Below, one piece after another: positions 4,601 to 57,939 of a stretch of DNA of 64,000 bases. Under the pieces are notes generated by a model. The model saw nothing but the letters and a program-made list of their open reading frames with translations, was not told the origin of the DNA and searched no databases. Each line of letters opens with the position of its first letter. Position 1 is the stretch's first letter. The DNA is from a virus, in IMG/VR virus record IMGVR_UViG_3300046314_000148, positions 1 to 64,000 of that record. One strand, given 5' to 3'. Position numbers and translations under genes: made by a program.

Positions 4601-7600
4601 AGCCATCTAAAACATATCACGATAGACTACTTTCTGGTCAATTTAAGAATAGAAATCTTTTAAAGGCTGCTCAAGAGGCAGATGCTAAGAAGCCAAGCAA
4701 AAGACCGCAAGGTGTAACTCCTAGAGGAAAAGCTGCCCCAGTAAGTCAGACCGTAAAGAAGGCTCCAAAGCCAAAGGGCCACAGCCTACAACAAATCATA
4801 CAAACTCCAATTATGACAAGAGGGCGTATCAGGGGATACGCAGATGGAGTAGTTGAAGTCCCAGGTCCAAAGGGAGCTGGAGATGTAATACCTGCAATGC
4901 TTTCTCCAGGAGAGTCTGTCATTCCTGCCAAGATGGCAAAGAAGTATGCCCCACTTATTTCTGGAATGATTAAGGGCAACCTCCCTGGATTCTTCGGCGG
5001 CTTCGACGCCAACTATGACCCTAAGACAGATCCTATGAATGAGATGTCTGGCTACATGCTAGATGCTCCTCCAGGAAGCGACCCGTTTGACTCGAAGTCT
5101 GCCATTGGATCAAATGGAATGCTTTCAGCCCCTCCAGGATCAGATCCATTTGGAACCAGCGGATCCTTTGACGACTACGAAAAAGAAAACAAAAAGATGG
5201 GCGGCAAATTCGTAGATGGCATGAAGGAGAAGCTGGGCCCAGCAGCAAAACAGTTTGGTAAGAACGTAAGCTCTGAGATGGCATCTGGTGCCAAGGCTGT
5301 TGGTAAAAATATTTGGGATAGAGCTAAGAAGGGTGCTCAGGAAGCAGGTGCTAGAGCACTATCATCTACTACCCTTGGCCAGAAGATGTCTGGCGGAGCA
5401 GGCATTACCTCTCAATCTGGAAAGACTTATGTCGCTGGAGCAGAAGTTAGAACAGACAAAAACGGTGTTCAGTATGGATATATTCCAGGTGTAGGAAAAA
5501 CCTCTGTAGAAAAGGCCCAGGCTGCGTCTAAAGATCCAAACGCTGCAAAACAAAGTGCTAGAGATAAGTTCGGGGCCAAGGCTCAAAAGGTTGGAATGAT
5601 TGGTATGGCTGGCAGCATGGCCGTATCTGCAGCCACACTTCTACCAGGAGAAGCTGGAAAGACTGCAGGAGACTTAGCACCACTGTTGCTCGGTCTTTCA
5701 TCGCTGGCAATGATTGTTCAGGGTCCTATAAGTGCTGCATTTGCAACCCTTGCAGCTGCTGTTGCCCTACCGCTATACGCAATGTTTAAATCAAACGAAG
5801 CCTTTGATCAGGCACAGGAATCTGCCCTGGCACTTGGCGAAGCGATGGGTGTTGGCAGCGGTGCAATTGTAAAGTTTGCAGAGTTTGCTGGAAACGTAAC
5901 TTCTAAAGAAGTTATGGATAGACGTAGGTCCGAGGGCTTCAGCGGATTCCAAATAAAGAGTGGCAAGAATACTTTTGGAAAGTCATTCTTAGGGTCCGAT
6001 GCTGGCAAGGCATTGCTTGACAATACACAAAAGACAATTAAGTCTGGTGGGGACAAGGCTGCTATAAGTCAAACAACCGCCCAGATGGCTACAGCCATAA
6101 GCTCTGGAGCAATGTCAGCCGCACAGGCTAGATCTGTTGTCGCACAACTTGCAGAAGAAATGGGTGACTACAACTTCGGAATACAGGTAAATTCTGAGCT
6201 AATGTCTTTGATTGGCCCAGACGGAGAAAACCTACTTACCGATCCACTAGGCGTTCGACTTAAAATGCTAGATGCTAAGCAGGGAGACATCAAGGCATCA
6301 GTAGAGAACATGAACAAGATTGCCGAAAAGGGCTTCCAGGGAACTGGGGCAGCAATCGGTGGTGCAATCGCTGGCGGCCTTGCAGGTGCTGGTATTGGTG
6401 CCGCTATTGGTGCCGCCCTAGCTCCAGCTACTCTGGGCCTATCCGTTGGTATTGGTGCTGCTGTGGGTGGTCTTGTTGGAATTGTTTCTGGTGGGATCAC
6501 TGGTGCAATTGCAGGAAATGAAGAGCATATCAAGGATCTTGGTTTGGCTTCTGCTGCAACTGTTGCAATGCAAAAAATGGCACTAGAGCAACAGCAAGAA
6601 ATTTCAGACTCTCTCGAGATGGAATATGAAAAGAGAATTGCAGCCGCAGAGGCAGCAGGGGACCTTGTTAAAAAGGAAGAGCTTCTTGGAAAACTTGCAG
6701 CAGCAAGAGTAGCCATAATGAACAAGAATAAGGGTCTTAATGAGCAAATCATTGGCTCATACAAGAATGCAAAAGATGACGAGCTACGGTCAAAGATGCA
6801 GTCTGGTGCAGAAAAGGCAGTAAAGAATACGTATAAGGGTACTGCCATGGAAGACGTAGCAGCCTATGCACAAAATTCACTCATGGATAGCAACATTGCC
6901 CCAGAACAAAAGTATCTTCTTACACTAGACATGTCTACAGGGGCGATAAACCCAAGTCAGATGATTGACATTCTTAGCATGTCAGAAAAGTCAAGAAACA
7001 TCGTAATTGGTATAGCCACAACCTATGGCGGTGCCACTGCAGGAGAGGTTACAAGCCTAACCTCACTATTCGTTGACCCAGTCACGAAGAAGCCAATTGA
7101 AAGCATTCAGACAGACTTCTTGCTGAAGATTCAGCAGGCAAAGACTCCAGAAGAGTTTAAGGACACTATGGAATTCTACAAGAAGGTGTCTCAGTCTGGA
7201 GCTGTCCTCAATACTGCGGTAGTCACTGACTACCTATTGAAGAACCCAGATGCTGCAGAGCGTCTAGATACCATGTTCGACAAGCTGAGAGACACTAAGG
7301 GTAAGATAAATCTAAAAGTTCTTGCAGATGTAGTTGGTGCAAAAGAGATAGCGGCAATCAATAGTGATCTCACATACTTCGAGAAGCTGAGCGACGATGA
7401 AAAAAAGGTATATACTCAAGTCCTAGCTACTACCCTACAGACAACAACCATCGCAGATCCTAAGTTCAAGAATTGGCTAAGCTCTGCTGGATCTAAGTTT
7501 AAGAATGCTTCAGACGCAACTCAGCTACAAGCATACGGTACTTGGAATTCCAGGGCAGTAACCGACCAGGTAAAGGCAGATGGCAAGGTTGATGAATTCC

Positions 7601-36826: not shown

Positions 36827-38611
36827 ATCAAAACCCCAAGACTGTTAGCAGCAATTTCTATGGCATTCCTGCCATTGTTTTTTGCTATGCCAGCTATGGC
36901 AGAAGACGTACCTGCAGAACCAGTTGTGGTTGTGGTTACAACTCCTGGAGGAGATGACTCATCCTACCAAGTACCCCTGACGACTACCGTAACCTTCGAT
37001 GGTGTTGTCTATGATCAGGTATTTGCTACAACTAACTCGGTAATTACTTTTGGTAGACCAGACGGAACTTACTGGGCATATCCAGCTACCCCATCAATTA
37101 GCCTTTACTCAATGGACTGGGTTGTATTCCCCTGGGCACGTCCAGACGAGCACCTGACCATCTCGGCATCTGATGGTGGCTTTCAGGTAGATATTTCTGC
37201 TAGACCTATCTGGCTACAGCAAGCCACAGAGCCAACAAATATCAATATCGTTGCTGCCATTAATACAGATGGAACAGTGTCAATATCTTATTCTTTAACT
37301 GGTCCAACCTACGAAGGTCAGACAAGAACTGGTGTTCGTCTTACAAATGGAGATGTAGTTACCCTAGAAGAGTATGGAGTCGTCCGTGTTGAGGAGCCGC
37401 CAGTACTTGAGCCAGAGCCAGTAGTTCCTACACCTACCCCATCACCAGAATCTACAGATGTTCCAGTAGATCCAACACCAACACCAACTCCAACTATTGA
37501 TCCTACACCAACCCCTATTCCAGAGCCTACAGTAGAGCCTACCCAGGAGCCAACCCCAGAGCCTATTCCAAGACCAGTTGTTCCAGAGGGGGCAACAATT
37601 ATATCAGAAGGTTCAAGCATTGAGGTGGTTGCTCCAGCAGGACAGAGAATTGTTAGCATAATGGCCTGGTATGGAGACCCAGATAATGCCACCCGAGGCA
37701 TTGACGTATCCTCTACATTGACACAGCTCGCTTCTGGGCAGACGTCAGTAACCATAGAGTCTTCCAATATGTATGGAGATCCAGCAGGAGGAACTGTAAA
37801 GGTGCTAATATTCCTGCCAACGTATGAGCAGATCCCAACCCCAGAACCAACTCCTACCCCAGAGCCAACACCTACAGTGCCACCAGTGGTAGTTTCAGAG
37901 CCAACACCTACGCCTGCTCCAACACCAGAACCTCGGCCTGCTCCTCAGCCTGCACCAGAACCAGCCCCTGCACCAAGCCCAGAGCCTGCTCCTCCAGTTG
38001 TAGAGCCAGAACCACCTGTTGCAGAACCAGAGCCTCCAGTCGTAACCCCAGAACCGCCAGTAGTAGAACCAGAACCACCTGTTGTAGAGCCAGAGCCACA
38101 ACCAAAGCCTCCTGCAGAGCCAGAGCCCCAGCCTGAGCCAGCACCAGAGCCTCCTGCAGAAGAATCGGCGGTAGCGGAGATTTCAAGTCTGGTAGAAACT
38201 GCACCAGAAGATCTAACAGACGCACAAATAGAACAGCTTGTAGAAGCAGCTATGGTTGTATTCGAAACAGCAGAGCAGGGCTCACCAGCCTATGAGCAAG
38301 CACTTGAAGCTCTGGTAGTAGCAGCAGAGGCAGACGATGCTGAGCTACCATCTGAGCTTGCAGCAATCCCACTACTTGGAGATGTTGCTGGAGCAGCCCT
38401 AGAAGTCTTTAATAATCTTGGTAACGTCGGTGCCGATATGGCACCTGCAGTCCGTGAGGAAGCAGAGAAGACAGTTATCGCATCCGTTATCGCAACTGGA
38501 GCAGCAGTGAATGCTGTTGCAGCAGCAGCTACGGCAGCATCTGGATCAGCAGGAGGGGCCTCATCTGGAGGATCTTCAGGTGGGTCAGGATCAACAAGGA
38601 GAAAAGAATAA
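36827..38611 (+). CDS. Exported proline-rich repeat protein, probable AUC start
   Basis: A 594-residue protein if it starts at ATC 36827 (583 from ATG 36860). The ATC start gives (M)IKTPRLLAAISMAF..., a full signal peptide with basic n-region and cleavage after AMA; the ATG start would lack the basic residues and any ribosome site. The mature protein has an N-terminal domain (GGDDSSYQVPLTTTVTFDGV, about 30-170), a Pro/Thr/Glu repeat linker, a second beta domain (EGATIISEGSSIEVVAPAGQ, about 245-330), a long Pro/Glu repeat, and a helical end with a hydrophobic segment and basic tail (STRRKE), likely a membrane or wall anchor. Surface display on the host cell is likely. Confidence 0.6.
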   Translation: MKTPRLLAAISMAFLPLFFAMPAMAEDVPAEPVVVVVTTPGGDDSSYQVPLTTTVTFDGVVYDQVFATTNSVITFGRPDGTYWAYPATPSISLYSMDWVVFPWARPDEHLTISASDGGFQVDISARPIWLQQATEPTNINIVAAINTDGTVSISYSLTGPTYEGQTRTGVRLTNGDVVTLEEYGVVRVEEPPVLEPEPVVPTPTPSPESTDVPVDPTPTPTPTIDPTPTPIPEPTVEPTQEPTPEPIPRPVVPEGATIISEGSSIEVVAPAGQRIVSIMAWYGDPDNATRGIDVSSTLTQLASGQTSVTIESSNMYGDPAGGTVKVLIFLPTYEQIPTPEPTPTPEPTPTVPPVVVSEPTPTPAPTPEPRPAPQPAPEPAPAPSPEPAPPVVEPEPPVAEPEPPVVTPEPPVVEPEPPVVEPEPQPKPPAEPEPQPEPAPEPPAEESAVAEISSLVETAPEDLTDAQIEQLVEAAMVVFETAEQGSPAYEQALEALVVAAEADDAELPSELAAIPLLGDVAGAALEVFNNLGNVGADMAPAVREEAEKTVIASVIATGAAVNAVAAAATAASGSAGGASSGGSSGGSGSTRRKE

Positions 38612-41023: not shown

Positions 41024-41869
41024 ATGAACCAAGCGGTATTCACGTCATTTGACGAAAACTACTCTGACTATGCATTGGTAATGGTCAAGACATTTTGTGA
41101 AAATTATCACGGAGACCCTATAGATCTTTATTGCCTAGTCCCAGAAGACATCCAGCAGCTGCAGCAGGAATACATTGAAAAGTGTGGGAACCCAAATAAT
41201 GTTGTCATTCGTTTCGTAACTCTAGAGAAGCAGAAGCAGATTCAGGATAGGTTCTCTGACGATGATGTGTCTATATCCTACATTACGCTACAATGCTTTC
41301 ATCGAATATTTATTGCAGACTCGTTTCCAGATCTAGATGTTGCTATCTATATAGATCCAGATACAATCATTCTTAGAGATGTTCAGTCGCTGATAGATTA
41401 TCCATTAGCCTCTGTCATAGCTGCAAGATCGGAGAGCATAGATGACCACAAGATTTCTGTAGTTGGTGTGGACGGCATTTACTTTAACAATGGGGTATAT
41501 AAGACAGACTTAAATTTCTGGAGGTCAGAGCAGTTGGCAGATAAAATGCTCGATAGGCTTACTACTCATGGGATAACCCTGTATCCAGAACAAGACCTAA
41601 TGAATATCTTCCTAGCAGGCCACGTAGCAGAGCTGCCAATCAACTTTAACTTTTCATCTTGGCTAAGCACTATTGGATTTTTTAGTCACACGGTACCAAA
41701 CCCAATGATTCTGCACTTTGCAGGACCAGACAAGCCATGGAAAAACCATAGCCTGGAAAAGAATTGGACAGCTATCTGGAGAAGCAAATACGAAGAAATT
41801 TTTGGGGATAAGGCAGAGCATATCAAGGACTTTGAAAATCTTTACACATACGACATGGGGGACAAGTAA
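41024..41869 (+). CDS. Glycosyltransferase family 8-like
   Basis: A 281-residue transferase. The start MNQAVFTSFDENYSDYALVMVKTF resembles GT8 enzymes. The metal/nucleotide-sugar motif is AIYIDPDTII (DxD, about residues 108-112), then GIYFNNGVYKTDLNFWR and the closing HFAGPDKPW motif. It would add a sugar from a nucleotide donor. AAGGAAG serves the ATG, 19 nt after the tRNA-Thr. It overlaps the next gene by 1 nt. A paralogue lies on the minus strand at 46140-46937. Confidence 0.85.
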   Translation: MNQAVFTSFDENYSDYALVMVKTFCENYHGDPIDLYCLVPEDIQQLQQEYIEKCGNPNNVVIRFVTLEKQKQIQDRFSDDDVSISYITLQCFHRIFIADSFPDLDVAIYIDPDTIILRDVQSLIDYPLASVIAARSESIDDHKISVVGVDGIYFNNGVYKTDLNFWRSEQLADKMLDRLTTHGITLYPEQDLMNIFLAGHVAELPINFNFSSWLSTIGFFSHTVPNPMILHFAGPDKPWKNHSLEKNWTAIWRSKYEEIFGDKAEHIKDFENLYTYDMGDK

Positions 41870-42549
41870 TGGATAAGCCAGACATAACCACTAAAGAGGT
41901 AGGAAACTTTGGTATATGGTACGACACTATTGATCCAAACTTTACAGAGATATCTAGGATGTCAAATATTCCCCACCACTGGTTATCTTTTCAGGAAGTC
42001 CTTGCAGGTCCATATTCCGAATCAGTAATTAAACCAATAAACAAATATGTTCAAAGACTGGTTCCTCCGCCAACCCTAGTCAGTATATCAGATGGCCAGA
42101 TACGCCTCCGCCAGGGTAACCATGCAGAATTTTTTCTTTTGGAAAGCAGTGACGGAACCTTCACCCATAGAGATAGACCATGGCAGAGACAATACTATAA
42201 CACTAGCCAGGACGGTATCGTAGCTCCAGACAATACCTTTGAGACAGCATTTAAGTTCTATGTTCCATGGATTTTAGATGAGAACGTTCATGTAAAGATA
42301 GAGCAGGTCGATGGAAGTCCATTTACAATCTTGCCTACGGAGTTTAACTACTACAAAGTTCCCGAGCAGATCCAAAACATAGAGCCAAAGTTTGTCACTT
42401 TTTTCTTTAATCGTGTTGGCACCCACATGGTGTCCGACACCTTTGGGAAGATACCAAGACAGTCCCCAATGTTTGACATGGTTTTTTCTGCAAATGGTAT
42501 ACTTATAGATAAAGTTAGGAATTTTTATGAAGAAGCAGAACGTAATTAA
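41869..42549 (+). CDS. Unknown protein related to next two genes
   Basis: A 226-residue soluble protein (MDKPDITTKEVGNFGIWYDT...). Its second half (FKFYVPWILDENVHVKIEQVDGSPF, FVTFFFNRVGTHMVSDTFGKIPRQSPMFDMVF) follows, loosely, the strand order of the two downstream proteins. This suggests a distant paralogue. No catalytic motif is recognised. Position between a GT8 enzyme and other glycan genes suggests a role in glycan or virion decoration. Confidence 0.6.
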   Translation: MDKPDITTKEVGNFGIWYDTIDPNFTEISRMSNIPHHWLSFQEVLAGPYSESVIKPINKYVQRLVPPPTLVSISDGQIRLRQGNHAEFFLLESSDGTFTHRDRPWQRQYYNTSQDGIVAPDNTFETAFKFYVPWILDENVHVKIEQVDGSPFTILPTEFNYYKVPEQIQNIEPKFVTFFFNRVGTHMVSDTFGKIPRQSPMFDMVFSANGILIDKVRNFYEEAERN

Positions 42550-43261
42550 GTTTTATCCACTAAACGATAAGACAGCAGAGTTTTCCCCAGAGCCTAAGCC
42601 AGGGTCTAGGGCCTTACCAGAGTGGTACAAGCAGCAGCCAGGAAGCGTAGATAATGGAGAGCTTCTTGCACAGTTCGGTCAGCCTGCCAGCACGGTAAAG
42701 AAGTGCTTGCCAATATTTGACGTTATCACAGCTGGATATATCATAGTTGCCCCACTAGACATCTACATTGACGCAACCGATCCAGATAAGCTTAGTTATC
42801 AGATTCCAGCTGCAATGACTTTGTTTAAGGGGGATATCTTTGCAACTCACGATAGAAAGCAGTATGCAAACATGCCTATGGAGTCTGACCTATACCACCA
42901 AGACTTGCTGAGGATAATGCCATTTTGGATTGCATCAACTCCCCCAGGATTTAGTGCTCTGTTCCTAGACCCACTACACAAGGACCCAACTCCGCTGACA
43001 GCACTGCCAGGACTAATCGACACCGATGGCTACCCATCAGATGGGCATCTATCGTTTAAGGTTCAGAAGGGATTCAAGGGCGTAATCAAGCAGGGCACAC
43101 CTCTAGTCCAGGTTATTCCATTTAGAAGAGAAGACTGGAAGATGGAAGTCGTCGATGCATCAGAGTCTGAGTCATTCCTAAAGAGGCACAGAATGAATCT
43201 TAGAAGCACTTTTAATAATGGTTACAAGAATAAGTTTAGATCTCCCAAGGAATATAAGTGA
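42527..43261 (+). CDS. Unknown protein, member of a paralogous pair (DUF6065-like?)
   Basis: A 244-residue protein. Motifs shared with the next product are PEWYKQQ (PEW[YF]), CLPIFDVITAGY, STPPGFSALFLDPL, LPGLIDTDG and GFKGVIKQGTPLVQVIPFRREDWKMEV. The pattern fits a family I recall as DUF6065, but the name is unchecked. The fold looks like a beta barrel or cupin; the [FY]-x-G-x-I-x2-G-T-P segment is like a closing strand. It overlaps its upstream neighbour by 23 nt and the downstream gene by 4 nt. Function unknown. Confidence 0.6.
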   Translation: MKKQNVIKFYPLNDKTAEFSPEPKPGSRALPEWYKQQPGSVDNGELLAQFGQPASTVKKCLPIFDVITAGYIIVAPLDIYIDATDPDKLSYQIPAAMTLFKGDIFATHDRKQYANMPMESDLYHQDLLRIMPFWIASTPPGFSALFLDPLHKDPTPLTALPGLIDTDGYPSDGHLSFKVQKGFKGVIKQGTPLVQVIPFRREDWKMEVVDASESESFLKRHRMNLRSTFNNGYKNKFRSPKEYK

Positions 43262-44037
43262 GCAATGAGCCACTCAAAATTAAATTTATTCCTCCGCACC
43301 AGCAGAGAGAAGATGGTTCTGGACCCAACTTTCCACCAGAGCCAGCAGTAAGGCATGTCCCAGAATGGTATCGTGCTCTCGCAAGATTCGATAAATCTAA
43401 TAACGACATCACTCTTAATCCTAAAAACAACATAGGCACCGATGGTGCCCAGGTATCTACAAAGATGTGCATGCCATACTTTGATGCCCTTACTGCAGGG
43501 TATAACTATTGCCTAGAGGATGACCTTTACGTCGATATGGATGAAGATGGCCACCCAATAATGTCCTGGGGTGGAGATGTTATGCTAGTGGATACTAGAC
43601 CAATCTTTGACGTACCTTTGCCAGATAACTGCCACCCAATACATTACGGTTGGAGAATGAACTGGTTCTACGAGACCCCACCAGGGTATTCTGTTCTTAT
43701 AACCCACCCGATGAATAGACATGATCTCCCGTTCTATACCCTATCTGGAATAGTGGAGTCTGACATTTGGGGGCTGCCAGTGTTTACGGCCTTTTTTCTT
43801 AAGAGAAATTTTCGTGGAATAATCCCAAAAGGAACTCCAATCTTTCAGATTATTCCGTTTAAGAGAGACAACTGGGAGCTAGAGGTTGATGATAGCCAAG
43901 AGGCTATTGACGAACACTGGTTCCGTGCAGAGAATAGACGGTCAATGCTTTATGGGTACTATAAGAAAATTGCCTGGAGAAAAAAGATTTTTGGAATTTT
44001 TGGGAAAAGGGAAAAAGAGGTAAACCACGATGACTAA
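43258..44037 (+). CDS. Unknown protein, second member of the pair
   Basis: A 259-residue protein from a GTG start overlapping the previous stop. It repeats the motifs VPEWYRALARF, CMPYFDALTAGYNYC, ETPPGYSVLITHP, FRGIIPKGTPIFQIIPFKRDNWELEV. A histidine-rich stretch (LPDNCHPIHYGWRMNWFY) could bind metal, but its partner positions are not proven. It overlaps the next gene by 8 nt. The pair arose by duplication, then diverged. Confidence 0.6.
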   Translation: MSNEPLKIKFIPPHQQREDGSGPNFPPEPAVRHVPEWYRALARFDKSNNDITLNPKNNIGTDGAQVSTKMCMPYFDALTAGYNYCLEDDLYVDMDEDGHPIMSWGGDVMLVDTRPIFDVPLPDNCHPIHYGWRMNWFYETPPGYSVLITHPMNRHDLPFYTLSGIVESDIWGLPVFTAFFLKRNFRGIIPKGTPIFQIIPFKRDNWELEVDDSQEAIDEHWFRAENRRSMLYGYYKKIAWRKKIFGIFGKREKEVNHDD

Positions 44038-44893
44038 TCTTCCTATAGCAATCATAGTCGTGGGCTATAAGGATAAGGGCATCCTAGATTTTGTAAAGCA
44101 CCTAAAGAGCGTTACTAGTTCTAAAAATATGGTGCTTGTCACCGATCAGCACCCACTAAAACACAAAGACGAGTTCTCGTCAGTAGATATGTGTAGCTAT
44201 GATCACGTTATCTGGGACTCAATAGATGGCCCAGCCAAGCATAGGTCAGAGAAGATATCTGATGCCGTATCATACGCAGATTATATCTGTATAGTTAGTC
44301 CAGACATATCCCTAAAGTATGGCTGGGACCTAGAATTGATCCATAAGATAGGCTCTGAACGCATAGTTCTATCTGGATCTGGAAGTATTTCTGTATCTAA
44401 CAAGGATATATTCTCGTTGTCACCCACATATACAGAATCTGAAGAATACAATACTACACAGTTTATAGATAGAAATTTCATATTTACAAAATCAGATGCA
44501 TTTTCAAAAATAGTCTTGCCAGACTTTCTTAAATATGACGGCGAGAATGAGTACCTGTCTCTAGCCATGCTATCAGCAGGATATGATATCGTCTCCGTAC
44601 CATCTGAAATCTATTCAGATTCACACATACGGTCCGTAGAGAATACCTACCATACCTTCTCGACAGAACACAACTACAACATCGTAGTGGATCTACTCAG
44701 CGGACTGGGGCTGACCGACTACGGAGTATCAGAAGAGGCACTATCAAAATTCTTAGACTTTCATGGCCTAGAGCTGGCTCCAGTTAAGAGGCTTCCTTAC
44801 TCGACAAATGATGTTATCTATGATCCATACAAGCTAAAGATGCATGGAGTCGATGCTCGCAGGTTCATTGCTGGCACAAAAGCAGTTTACTGA
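44030..44893 (+). CDS. GT2-like glycosyltransferase
   Basis: A 287-residue protein. The start LPIAIIVVGYKDKGILDFVKHLKSV is the usual nucleotide-binding strand of GT-A enzymes. ADYICIVSPDISLKYGWDLEL around residues 83-103 takes the place of the DxD region, with PDIS in place of DxD, followed by an ICDR-like segment (YLSLAMLSAGYDIVSVPSEIYSDSH) near 185. It probably transfers a sugar or glycan residue. A leaderless promoter for the next gene lies directly behind it. Confidence 0.6.
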   Translation: MTNLPIAIIVVGYKDKGILDFVKHLKSVTSSKNMVLVTDQHPLKHKDEFSSVDMCSYDHVIWDSIDGPAKHRSEKISDAVSYADYICIVSPDISLKYGWDLELIHKIGSERIVLSGSGSISVSNKDIFSLSPTYTESEEYNTTQFIDRNFIFTKSDAFSKIVLPDFLKYDGENEYLSLAMLSAGYDIVSVPSEIYSDSHIRSVENTYHTFSTEHNYNIVVDLLSGLGLTDYGVSEEALSKFLDFHGLELAPVKRLPYSTNDVIYDPYKLKMHGVDARRFIAGTKAVY

Positions 44894-44899
44894 TATAAT
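44891..44899 (+). promoter_or_regulatory. Extended -10 promoter, leaderless start for 44906
   Basis: TGA-TATAAT at 44891-44899, 6 nt (ATTATT), then ATG 44906. It sits in the last codons and stop of the previous gene. Confidence 0.7.
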
Positions 44900-44905
44900 A
44901 TTATT

Positions 44906-45505
44906 ATGCATAGAATAACCGTGATCGATAACTTTATTAGTCCAGAGGATGCAGCCATCCTAATGGAAGAGCAGGACAGGCCATCTGAGAGAAATCCCTA
45001 TCCAGAATATTATGCCAAAAGATTTGGTGGTACAGCCTTCCCTTATAATCAGCGTGTCATGGACATCCTGATAAAGTATGGACTGCTTTCAAACGATGTT
45101 CACAAAAAGGCTAATGGGTTTGTTAATCCAATATTTGTGTTTAAGAGCTTTGGCTCGGTATGGAAGCCAGTCAGCAAGGCTGGACTACACCTAGATGCCC
45201 AGGACCCAGAACCGTTTATTGAGTTCAGCACAATCATATACTTGAATAGCCCAGACGAATACGAGGGTGGGGTAATATATTTCCCAAACCAGGATTATGA
45301 ATATAAACCGAGACAATACTCTGCTGTTTTCTTTCCGTCAGCAGGCTCGGAATATATCCACGGAATAACATCAGTTACCAGTGGTACTAGAAGAACTGCT
45401 CTCTATATGCATACCAGTATCCCAGAGCATGCAGATCCAGATTTCCACTCGGCCGAGGAAACTGCAGTTTGGCAAGCTCAGACCCACCCAAACAACAAGA
45501 AGTAG
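44906..45505 (+). CDS. 2OG-Fe(II) oxygenase, prolyl hydroxylase type
   Basis: A 199-residue protein. The motif H-x-D is GLHLDAQDPE (about residues 93-97). The hydroxylase core follows: IYLNSPDEYEGGVIYFPNQDYEYKPRQYSAVFFPSAGSEYIHGI, with the distal His in YIHGI and the cosubstrate Arg in RRTALYMHT. This is the prolyl-4-hydroxylase-like fold common in phages. It would hydroxylate a protein or sugar substrate of unknown type. Confidence 0.8.
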   Translation: MHRITVIDNFISPEDAAILMEEQDRPSERNPYPEYYAKRFGGTAFPYNQRVMDILIKYGLLSNDVHKKANGFVNPIFVFKSFGSVWKPVSKAGLHLDAQDPEPFIEFSTIIYLNSPDEYEGGVIYFPNQDYEYKPRQYSAVFFPSAGSEYIHGITSVTSGTRRTALYMHTSIPEHADPDFHSAEETAVWQAQTHPNNKK

Positions 45506-45512
45506 CCTAGAT

Positions 45513-46157
45513 ATGAATCACGAAATTCTTGATCTTGGCTTGGTGTACTATCGTGAAGTAATAGATAGTCCACAAACAATAATTGATTTAATCGAAGATG
45601 TTGATAGGCGGTTTAGGGCCAGTGAGCACGGAGCCAACGACACCATTGTGGCAGACTGGAAGCCTTGGACATACGATCACCTATTCTTTAATTATCAAAA
45701 GTTTTTCCCAGAGGCAGAGAATGTTCCAGCAAACGACTACTATGCAAAAGAGATGATAGAGATTGCAAATGCTCTATACCCGTCCCTGAATAAGGCATTT
45801 GATCACTACTCAAAGGTTGTCTATCCCTTCGCAGGAAGAAGTGTTAAGGCTAGAGAGTACAGCATCCATCTACTAAAATATGGAGTCGGTGGCCATCTCC
45901 CAGCTCACTCCGATCAGGGTATAAGTACTAGAGTTCTATCCTCAGTCATGTATCTGAACGATGACTACGAGGGTGGAGAGATCGAGTTTATAAATTCTGG
46001 GGTAAGGATTAAGCCGCAGGCTGGTAGCGTAATATTTTTTCCATCAAACTTCTTATATGTTCACGAGGTACATCCAATAACTGATGGCTTTAGGTATTCG
46101 ATGCCGCATTGGTATCACAATAGAAAAGATTTTATTGCATCAGACGGTACCGAGTAA
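45513..46157 (+). CDS. 2OG-Fe(II) oxygenase, prolyl hydroxylase type
   Basis: A 214-residue protein; the ATG at 45513 is the first sensible start, 7 nt after the previous stop. The motif is LPAHSDQGISTR (H-x-D), then SVMYLNDDYEGGEIEF, KPQAGSVIFFPSNFLYVHEVHPIT (distal His) and FRYSMPHWYHN (Arg). It is a second copy of the same class as 44906, not closely similar. It overlaps the convergent GT8 gene by 18 nt. Confidence 0.8.
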   Translation: MNHEILDLGLVYYREVIDSPQTIIDLIEDVDRRFRASEHGANDTIVADWKPWTYDHLFFNYQKFFPEAENVPANDYYAKEMIEIANALYPSLNKAFDHYSKVVYPFAGRSVKAREYSIHLLKYGVGGHLPAHSDQGISTRVLSSVMYLNDDYEGGEIEFINSGVRIKPQAGSVIFFPSNFLYVHEVHPITDGFRYSMPHWYHNRKDFIASDGTE

Positions 46158-46937
46158 CATCGGTTTAAAGTCTTTATAGACACTTCTCCACAGATCCGCA
46201 TAGATAGAGGCTGACTCGTCAGCCCAAGGCTTCTGATAGCCAGCAAAATGAACAATCAATGGGTCATCATATTCCTTAGCCATTAGCTTATTATTTCCAA
46301 TTATCCAGTCAAAGAAGTTAAAAGAGAATGGAAGTGGAGATAGGTGCTTAGCCAGAATGGCGTTTAGAGAGTCTTGTTCTGCAAATTGAGTGTCTGGGTT
46401 ATGTGTGATCCACTCGACTAGCTTATCTTCTATGCTGTTAGATCTCCAAAACTCTAAATCAGCTATAAATACACCAGAGTTAAAGCACGGGACATCAGAA
46501 TTATTAAATAAACGCTTGCTGTTATTGACAGTCTCCATTACCGCAAAGAATGTACCAGACCCAGAATAATCAAGTAGTGGCGAAATATCTCTAAGTATAA
46601 TTGTATCTGGGTCTATGTATATTGCAAAATCATATTCTGGGAAAAGTGAACCAATGAATATTCTTTGATAAGCATTGGGTGTAACGTGCTGAACCCCTCT
46701 GGCATACCCATCTTTGTCTAGCTTCAGAAACTTCTCAGATATCATAAACTTAATGCGTAGATTACCCTGAGCCACAGACATTCTATAGTCATCTTCTAGA
46801 TCCATGATTGATTCTGGAACTAGGCAGACGACATCTAGTGGGGCATCCCCATGGTAGTTCATACCCAATGACTTGATGGCTACACGAGAATACCCCATGT
46901 AGTTGCTGTCGAATGAGGTAACTACTACTTTTTTCAT
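46140..46937 (-). CDS. Glycosyltransferase family 8-like
   Basis: A 265-residue transferase on the minus strand, paralogous to the 41024 gene: MKKVVVTSFDSNYMGYSRVAIKSL, IYIDPDTIILRDI (DxD), FNSGVFIADLEFWR and HFAGYQKPW. It is convergent with the hydroxylase gene and slightly overlaps its end. It has its own leaderless-type promoter. The two copies bracket the whole cassette. Confidence 0.85.
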   Translation of the reverse strand: MKKVVVTSFDSNYMGYSRVAIKSLGMNYHGDAPLDVVCLVPESIMDLEDDYRMSVAQGNLRIKFMISEKFLKLDKDGYARGVQHVTPNAYQRIFIGSLFPEYDFAIYIDPDTIILRDISPLLDYSGSGTFFAVMETVNNSKRLFNNSDVPCFNSGVFIADLEFWRSNSIEDKLVEWITHNPDTQFAEQDSLNAILAKHLSPLPFSFNFFDWIIGNNKLMAKEYDDPLIVHFAGYQKPWADESASIYADLWRSVYKDFKPMLLGTV

Positions 46938-54079: not shown

Positions 54080-55018
54080 ATGGGTCAGCCCACTATATTC
54101 ATAACCATACCAGCATACGAGGATCCTCAGCTCCTGGAGACCATAGAGGGGGCACTGGACAATGCCTTATATCCAGAAAGACTATTCTTTTGTATTGGTA
54201 TGCAATACAGAGTTCTGCCAGATATATCTAAATACCTAAGTAATCCAAATTTCAAATTTTTATTTTATGATGTAGATACTAGACCAGGTGTGTACCAGAT
54301 CAGAAAAGAGATGGCAGACGAGCACAGCGGCCAGGACTATTTTATGATGATCGACTCACACATGACATTTGTCAAGTATTGGGACTCTATGTTGGTAAAT
54401 GACTATAAAAATTTGGTGGCAACTCACGGAGAAAAGACCGTGATGTCTAAGCCAGTGACACACAAGATAGGCTTGACCCTAAACAATGGGCATATAAACG
54501 ATTATCCATGTTGGGAGATAAATCGCAATGTCAGCCCTAAAGAGATCAATAGGTTTTTAATTCCAGCAGTTCGCAACATCCCATGGAATGGTGATAGATT
54601 TATAAAGATATACTACGCCTGTAGCCATTTCTTTTTTACTAGCAAAAAGTTTCTAGAGGACCTTGGATTTTTCTCAGGTATAAGATTCTATTGCGAGGAA
54701 CTAATAACTAGCGTCCTAATTTACATATCTGGTTGGGACATATACATGAATCCATCTCATATATTAGTTGGCCACGATGATAAAAAAACCATGAGAAGCC
54801 TATACAATAGAGATAGCTACTCTCTGGCCGATGGCAAGACCTTTACGGCAATAGAAGATGACGGGGGTACCAAGTTGGAGATTGCAAGGTTTGTGCTAAC
54901 TGGAAAGTCTAAGCTCATAGATGTGAACGCTAGCAGATCAGTAGAAGATTATTACACGGTGTCTGGCCTAGCTGACGTATATCGTGAGCTAAAGGTCGAA
55001 AATCTAATATTAGATTAA
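54080..55018 (+). CDS. GlcNAc-type glycosyltransferase
   Basis: A 312-residue protein. Start TIFITIPAYEDPQLLETIEGAL is the GT-A first strand; the active site is FMMIDSHMTFVKYWDSML (DxH in place of DxD), as in the GlcNAc transferase family related to Skp1 glycosyltransferases. FFFTSKKFLEDLGFFSGIRFYCEELITSVLIYISG continues the fold. It overlaps the end of the convergent HNH gene. Confidence 0.7.
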   Translation: MGQPTIFITIPAYEDPQLLETIEGALDNALYPERLFFCIGMQYRVLPDISKYLSNPNFKFLFYDVDTRPGVYQIRKEMADEHSGQDYFMMIDSHMTFVKYWDSMLVNDYKNLVATHGEKTVMSKPVTHKIGLTLNNGHINDYPCWEINRNVSPKEINRFLIPAVRNIPWNGDRFIKIYYACSHFFFTSKKFLEDLGFFSGIRFYCEELITSVLIYISGWDIYMNPSHILVGHDDKKTMRSLYNRDSYSLADGKTFTAIEDDGGTKLEIARFVLTGKSKLIDVNASRSVEDYYTVSGLADVYRELKVENLILD

Positions 55019-57846: not shown

Positions 57847-57939
57847 AGTTACATAGTATAGTAGGCAGTACGCCATAGTCTATAAACTGTATGCAGCAGA
57901 TGGCTAGGGGAAGCATGGGTTCGAGTCCCATTGTAACTA
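57847..57939 (+). tRNA. tRNA-like gene with long variable arm and odd anticodon arm
   Basis: Perfect acceptor AGTTACA/TGTAACT and T-arm ATGGG/CCCAT. The anticodon arm ATAGT/ACTGT leaves only a 6-nt loop (CTATAA). A variable arm of about 24 nt (GCT...AGC) fits class II. Identity is unclear; perhaps degenerate or a suppressor. Confidence 0.4.

Follow-up and report, generated by a model that had tools for sequence, protein, structure and literature searches.

Gene content of the locus

The virus record IMGVR_UViG_3300046314_000148 of IMG/VR is 112,245 bases in length and encodes, among others, tape-measure and tail proteins, a DnaB-like helicase, a primase and a DNA polymerase. Positions 1 to 64,000 of this record (hereafter, the window) were analysed, with attention to a compact group of genes at positions 41,024 to 46,937 that an earlier interpretation, made without database searches (the sequence-only reading), had described as a cassette for hydroxylation and glycan transfer. 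The eight open reading frames (ORFs) of that description were all confirmed. The cassette is located 3' of a small tRNA cluster and 5' of a gene for an M23 peptidase.

On the plus strand, a glycosyltransferase gene of family GT8 (41024..41869) is followed by a gene for a protein without a Pfam match (U1, 41869..42549), two genes of a phage family without described function (DUF-A, 42527..43261; DUF-B, 43258..44037), a gene for a protein resembling GT-A glycosyltransferases (44030..44893) and two genes for 2-oxoglutarate (2OG)-Fe(II) oxygenases (44906..45505 and 45513..46157). For the second of these oxygenase genes, the ATG at 45513 is a better start than the GTG at 45381 that had been listed. 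The ORFs overlap by 1 nt (41869), 23 nt (42527-42549), 4 nt (43258-43261) and 8 nt (44030-44037), in agreement with the overlaps of 1-23 nt between 41869 and 44037 reported before, and 12 nt separate the GT-A-like gene from the start of the first 2OG gene. A second GT8 gene (46140..46937) shares 18 nt with the second 2OG gene. The two GT8 genes thus flank the set as had been claimed; the second, however, is convergent on the opposite strand and so lies outside the cassette transcript. A scan for promoters and terminators was uninformative.

Three related proteins and a predicted dUTPase-like fold

DUF-A and DUF-B are ancient paralogues, sharing 29% identity (BLAST, 5e-29). Both match the profile of phrog_7084 over its full length (5.2e-42 and 1.1e-31, respectively). 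Towards Pfam DUF6065, DUF-B scores 20.3 bits (4e-4), below the gathering cut-off of 26.6, and DUF-A has no match. Mean identity is 53% and 64% within the DUF-A and DUF-B groups and 29% between them, with the DUF-B genes of two cassette layouts forming one clade (36/36, support 0.99). BLAST showed no similarity of U1 to either protein, whereas profile-profile comparison (hhalign) joined U1 to the DUF profile with E-values of 9e-6 to 3e-5 (probability 83); the control, about sixty further families encoded at these loci, reached 0.034 at best. The last hundred or so residues of U1 and DUF-A also have the same predicted order of strands and helices. U1 is therefore kin to the DUF genes, and the sequence-only reading was right to speak of three related unknown proteins, the DUF pair by BLAST and U1 remotely.

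For DUF-A, structure prediction with AlphaFold2 (AF2) on 81 sequences, a check that had been proposed, gave a model with a predicted local distance difference test score (pLDDT) of 95.8. When compared with the PDB using Foldseek, the best fifty matches of this model were all dUTPases (best hit: E 6.8e-4, probability 1.0, template modelling score 0.75 over the target); in a viral structure library its own family came first, followed by dUTPases. At the sequence level, the family profiles retrieved nothing from the PDB. The G[IV][IV]DTD and GTPxxQ sequences of the family are the counterparts of dUTPase motifs III and IV, and an alignment with Escherichia coli dUTPase pairs precisely these two stretches, at an E-value (1.7e-3) that is weak alone. 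The full set of five dUTPase motifs is not present: AGY followed by I, M, Y or H replaces the aspartate of motif I (AGxD), and the C-terminal glycine-rich motif V is absent, for which reasons dUTPase activity of DUF-A is unlikely. By prediction, DUF-A is thus probably an exapted dUTPase fold. This fold and the strong conservation of the family do not favour the earlier suggestion that the three proteins are glycan carriers or structural recipients of the modification.

Oxygenases and sugar-transfer genes

Both oxygenases are of the prolyl 4-hydroxylase type, as had been proposed, with matches to PF13640 (1.4e-7 for 44906..45505 and 5.8e-17 for 45513..46157) and an intact HxD...H...R/K arrangement of facial triad and 2OG-binding residue (HLD...H...R and HSD...H...R, respectively). 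Sequence comparison shows the catalytic half to be common to the two proteins. The profile is stronger evidence than the motif, as the loose motif pattern also fits 31% of shuffled sequences. These enzymes may hydroxylate proline of a protein. 2OG oxygenases occur in 14/16 cyanophage genomes, where they have been explained as helpers in maintaining 2OG levels or in DNA repair (PMC3037559).

The two GT8 proteins are paralogous (39% identity, 4e-61), as had been stated, and each possesses a PF01501 match (1.4e-31 for the first, 1.4e-32 for the second) with an intact DxD motif (YIDPD in the first). Among approximately ninety loci, these genes are present only in the window's virus and its close relative L006; they are therefore ruled out as core genes and are accessory, contrary to the role as members of the system that they had been given. 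The gene at 44030, formerly read as GT2-like, does encode a remote relative of glycosyltransferases, with 244 columns aligned to the PF11397 family (hhalign, probability 97.8, E 7.6e-13). The protein itself has no Pfam match and its metal-binding DxD/DxH motif is degenerate. Elsewhere in the window, gene 54080..55018 (plus strand) encodes a PF11397 protein, resembling GlcNAc transferases of family GT60 (3.4e-17), with the metal-binding DxH motif in the form DSH, and is a possible partner of the cassette. In L006 and L007, homologues of this gene come directly 3' of the cassette; a PF11397 homologue was found beside the cassette in these two loci and also in L016, L021 and L024. A carbamoyltransferase gene often stands directly before or after the cassette in relatives, as identified in L007. 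Further sugar-related genes of the window comprise an epimerase, a UDP-glucose-dehydrogenase-type piece, a GDP-mannose dehydratase, a Stealth-like gene and a DXD sugar transferase.

Conservation of the cassette

IMG/VR was searched for close relatives and then for the DUF family, which is encoded at 594 or more viral places; profiles of the window's genes were run over the loci mentioned above, and de-replication at 90% left 59 clusters, of which 33 are multi-copy and 26 are single-copy. The conserved unit consists of six genes: U1, DUF-A, DUF-B, the GT-A-like gene and the two 2OG genes. The order U1-DUF-DUF-GT-2OG recurs in 15 de-replicated clusters, some with the second 2OG gene following, and the arrangement is therefore more than chance. 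This gene-neighbourhood survey, suggested by the sequence-only reading, bears out its view of a compact, conserved hydroxylation and glycan cassette: the genes clearly co-occur in many other phage contigs, the lack of which would have spoken against it. Other layouts include DUF-U1-DUF with extra oxygenase-like genes, three DUF genes with four to seven 2OG genes, and single DUF genes. Multi-copy clusters contain a GT-like gene more often than single-copy clusters (24/33 versus 4/26, p 1.6e-5) and likewise a 2OG gene (24/33 versus 8/26, p 0.002). Exactly three dUTPase-fold genes are found in 26 of the 33 multi-copy clusters, which makes it a natural idea that U1, DUF-A and DUF-B would form a heterotrimer.

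Among isolated phages, neither U1 nor the GT-like protein nor the repeat protein described below had a homologue, and at the DNA level the cassette had no relative among them, only the flanking tRNA-Thr being matched. The literature yielded no article about DUF6065 or about aromatic/proline repeats of this kind. DUF-family relatives are common as chromosomal genes of Rhizobiales (L096-L175, loci of Rhizobiales and other genomes). In L015, the gene directly 5' of the cassette (5814-7274) encodes a protein that is apparently exported and has an HExxH-type motif (HEMWH). Within a tRNA cluster of the window, a tRNA-like gene (57847-57939) has an unresolved anticodon.

Repeat proteins beside the family in other phages

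In distant phages, the proteins adjoining the DUF genes are marked by extreme repeats, among them PFGFTPFGFT, FGAFGA, PFFPPFF, NPPPYDNPPPYY and FYHGFYHG. FN3 or PASTA-like domains precede the repeats, and a Hint/intein-like C-terminal region (weak Pfam match) often comes after them. Examples of aromatic-repeat proteins with such an end are those of L041 (6708-7958), L061 (6343-7956) and L069 (3148-4023), the ends in L041 and L069 showing weak matches to PF14890. A repeat protein is encoded within six genes upstream of the DUF genes in 25/59 clusters and downstream in 2/59. In the reciprocal scan, IMG/VR was searched for the repeats alone, the loci were de-replicated and the 5 kb downstream were inspected. 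A dUTPase-fold gene was present at 43/61 aromatic-repeat loci as against 1/39 loci with collagen GPQ repeats (p 1e-12), and a 2OG gene at 43/61 as against 2/39 (p 2e-11); control loci with PTPTPE repeats had a dUTPase-fold gene in 0/20 cases and a 2OG gene in 1/20. Upstream of the aromatic repeats there were almost no dUTPase-fold or 2OG genes. As general partners of the family, collagen GXY repeats (1/39) and PTPEP repeats (0/20) are ruled out.

The more proline a repeat contains, the more 2OG genes tend to accompany it (correlation of proline fraction and gene number: rho 0.67 for n=50, 0.52 for all 69; uncorrected for ancestry). Proline-poor repeats (FGA, FYHG) keep the DUF genes and mostly have no adjacent 2OG gene of the PF13640 type, which suggests a division of labour where the DUF proteins serve the repeat and the 2OG enzymes its prolines. 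As relatives of the cassette sit just downstream of their genes in many uncultured phages, the repeat tail proteins are the likely targets; by this neighbourhood, the recipients of the modification are not the three proteins once proposed but, likely, separate proteins rich in proline and aromatic repeats. Proteins with HxH and GHPH motifs and no significant Pfam match, termed OGb (L040, 7717-9008), also recur beside aromatic-repeat proteins; the copy of the window's virus matches phrog_2696, and OGb is possibly another oxygenase family.

Candidate substrates in the window's virus

The window's virus encodes an FN3-like protein with an aromatic repeat tail (PFGVFGFSPFGVFGF) at record positions 98168-98890, outside the window (15168-15890 of L362, which covers record positions 83001-102000). 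This gene lies 51 kb from the cassette, and downstream of it come an OGb-like gene and a 2OG gene of the PF13640 type (record 98-100 kb). A short PASTA-like protein with an aromatic-repeat tail (record 90633-90980; L362 7633-7980) and a collagen-like protein (record 87838-88539) were also identified. The repeat proteins of this clade were found by protein search, a rigid DNA pattern for FG repeats having missed even the protein of G000. As the repeat gene does not adjoin the cassette, the link between the two in the window's virus is by homology.

Closer to the cassette, ORF 36860-38611 (plus strand) contains long PTPEP/PEPPV stretches (16.8% proline) and a signal-peptide-like start, and its product is apparently exported. 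In L006 and L007, relatives of this protein are likewise encoded on the upstream side of the cassette, as is a proline-rich protein with a different head in L015. With cassette and repeat gene separated in the window's clade, the substrate may be the repeat protein, modified in trans, the exported proline-rich protein or something else.

Proposed function and alternative explanations

The cassette is proposed to be a phage operon for the modification and handling of repeat tail proteins, a proposal that we consider to have about an even chance of being correct. In this scheme, the two prolyl-hydroxylase-type oxygenases would hydroxylate residues, most likely proline, of a repetitive tail or adhesin-type protein, and glycosyltransferases would then decorate the hydroxyls: in the window's virus the GT8 and PF11397 enzymes, elsewhere a carbamoyltransferase. 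U1, DUF-A and DUF-B would have given up the dUTPase role and would assemble as a trimer, probably a heterotrimer, whose task is to bind the repeat and to present or chaperone it. Of the earlier proposal that a protein is hydroxylated and then glycosylated, the conserved cassette for both steps stands; the GT8 proteins fall outside the core and the recipients are revised. A more specific version is put forward tentatively, with doubt prevailing: the dUTPase trimer was exapted as a heterotrimeric scaffold, encoded by three genes, which would capture the silk-like Phe/Pro/Gly repeat tails of FN3/PASTA proteins and hand them over to dedicated prolyl hydroxylases, matched in number to the proline of the repeat, and to glycosyltransferases, constituting an undescribed system by which aromatic-repeat tail proteins are produced in modified form.

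Several observations weigh against the operon proposal. The AF2 model of U1 (pLDDT 91) has no clear fold match in the PDB, and the fold of this protein is therefore assigned by homology. The GT-A-like core protein, lacking DxD/DxH, may be inactive. The correlation between proline fraction and 2OG gene number ignores shared ancestry, and by simple gene calls the DUF6065 genes of Rhizobiales have no 2OG neighbours. In both the window's virus and G004 (100 kb), another member of the clade, the FN3/aromatic-repeat protein is encoded far from the cassette with 2OG genes of its own downstream; for this reason the cassette may serve another protein in this clade.

One such protein would be the exported product of 36860-38611, modified to a hydroxyproline-linked glycoprotein as in the hydroxyproline-rich glycoproteins of plants. 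It is encoded 3 kb upstream with the proline content and signal-peptide-like start described above, and proline-rich proteins occur six to eight genes upstream in L007, L015, L017, L020, L023, L024 and L094. On the other hand, dUTPase-fold genes were absent from all 20 viral PTPTPE-repeat loci, the relatives L016 and L080 have a long protein that is not proline-rich at that place, and an exported protein would need modification before secretion; this substrate is given a small chance. Neighbourhood alone might also account for the association, if a hot-spot 3' of tail-fibre genes gathers unrelated auxiliary genes and the link between repeat, DUF and 2OG genes is inherited synteny. The abundance of 2OG genes in cyanophages (PMC3037559) agrees with this, but unlike repeats (PFGFT, FGA, PFFP, NPPPY, FYHG) on FN3/PASTA scaffolds all show the association and the control collagen repeats do not, so that the chance accorded to it is slight.

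DNA or nucleotide hypermodification, where the dUTPase fold would bind a nucleotide, the 2OG enzymes would hydroxylate the base (as in TET/JBP) and glycosyltransferases would glycosylate it, draws on the fold itself, on a weak Tet_JBP score of the second 2OG protein (2.8e-4) and on the carbamoyltransferases and glycosyltransferases nearby. It is improbable, given that PF13640 matches far better than Tet_JBP, that dUTPase motifs I and V are absent and that the DUF family tracks genes for repeat proteins rather than nucleotide genes. The target could instead be a host surface polysaccharide, a lipid or a small molecule and no protein, for example to exclude superinfecting phages. The GT8, NDP-sugar epimerase/dehydratase, Stealth-like and DXD sugar transferase genes of the window are compatible with such a target, as are the carbamoyltransferases, O-carbamoyltransferases often acting on sugars. 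The GT8 genes are not conserved with the core, however, and the dUTPase-fold trio and its adjacency to repeat proteins would be left unexplained, making this a rather unlikely account.

Should the modification of repeat tail proteins be the function of the cassette, phrog_7084, a large phage family, would gain a fold, a set of partners and a candidate target, and the many orphan 2OG oxygenases of aquatic phages may serve to mature repeat tail proteins instead of aiding 2OG levels or DNA repair. Phages would then provide an example of an exapted enzyme fold and of glycosylation linked to hydroxylation, and the system might be of use in the production of hydroxylated silk-like polymers.

Comparison with known systems

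In the hydroxyproline glycosylation of Skp1, the prolyl 4-hydroxylase PhyA and the GT60 enzyme Gnt1 are followed by further glycosyltransferases, including the GT8-type Gat1 in Toxoplasma. Similarly, the window's virus combines prolyl-hydroxylase-type 2OG oxygenases with PF11397 (GT60-like) and GT8 proteins. In contrast to the Skp1 pathway, the cassette is viral, has repeat-protein neighbours, a dUTPase-fold trio and carbamoyltransferases, and its core GT-like protein is without the DxH motif. DUF-A resembles the trimeric beta-clip dUTPases in its predicted fold (AF2/Foldseek) and in the sequences GIVDTD and GTPxxQ, which are akin to motifs III and IV, but differs in the missing motif I aspartate and glycine-rich motif V, in being about 100 residues longer and in having oxygenases and glycosyltransferases as the products of its companion genes.

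HF2-like haloarchaeal viruses encode a single phrog_7084-type homologue (e.g. HrrHF2_475; 26-32% identical) which is near tail genes, but without annotated oxygenases or glycosyltransferases alongside. The 2OG/tryptophan-halogenase cluster of cyanophage Syn9 (gp40-gp60) is also similar to the cassette, with phrog_7084-type gp43 located by tail-fibre genes and several 2OG oxygenases; no repeat protein was recognised within the stretch examined. The gene of gp43 overlaps that of a tryptophan halogenase (L004, 6416-8780), and it is a thought that aromatic residues of a tail protein might be halogenated in this phage. Unlike the cassette of the window, the Syn9 cluster possesses tryptophan halogenases and is devoid of U1 and the GT-like core gene.

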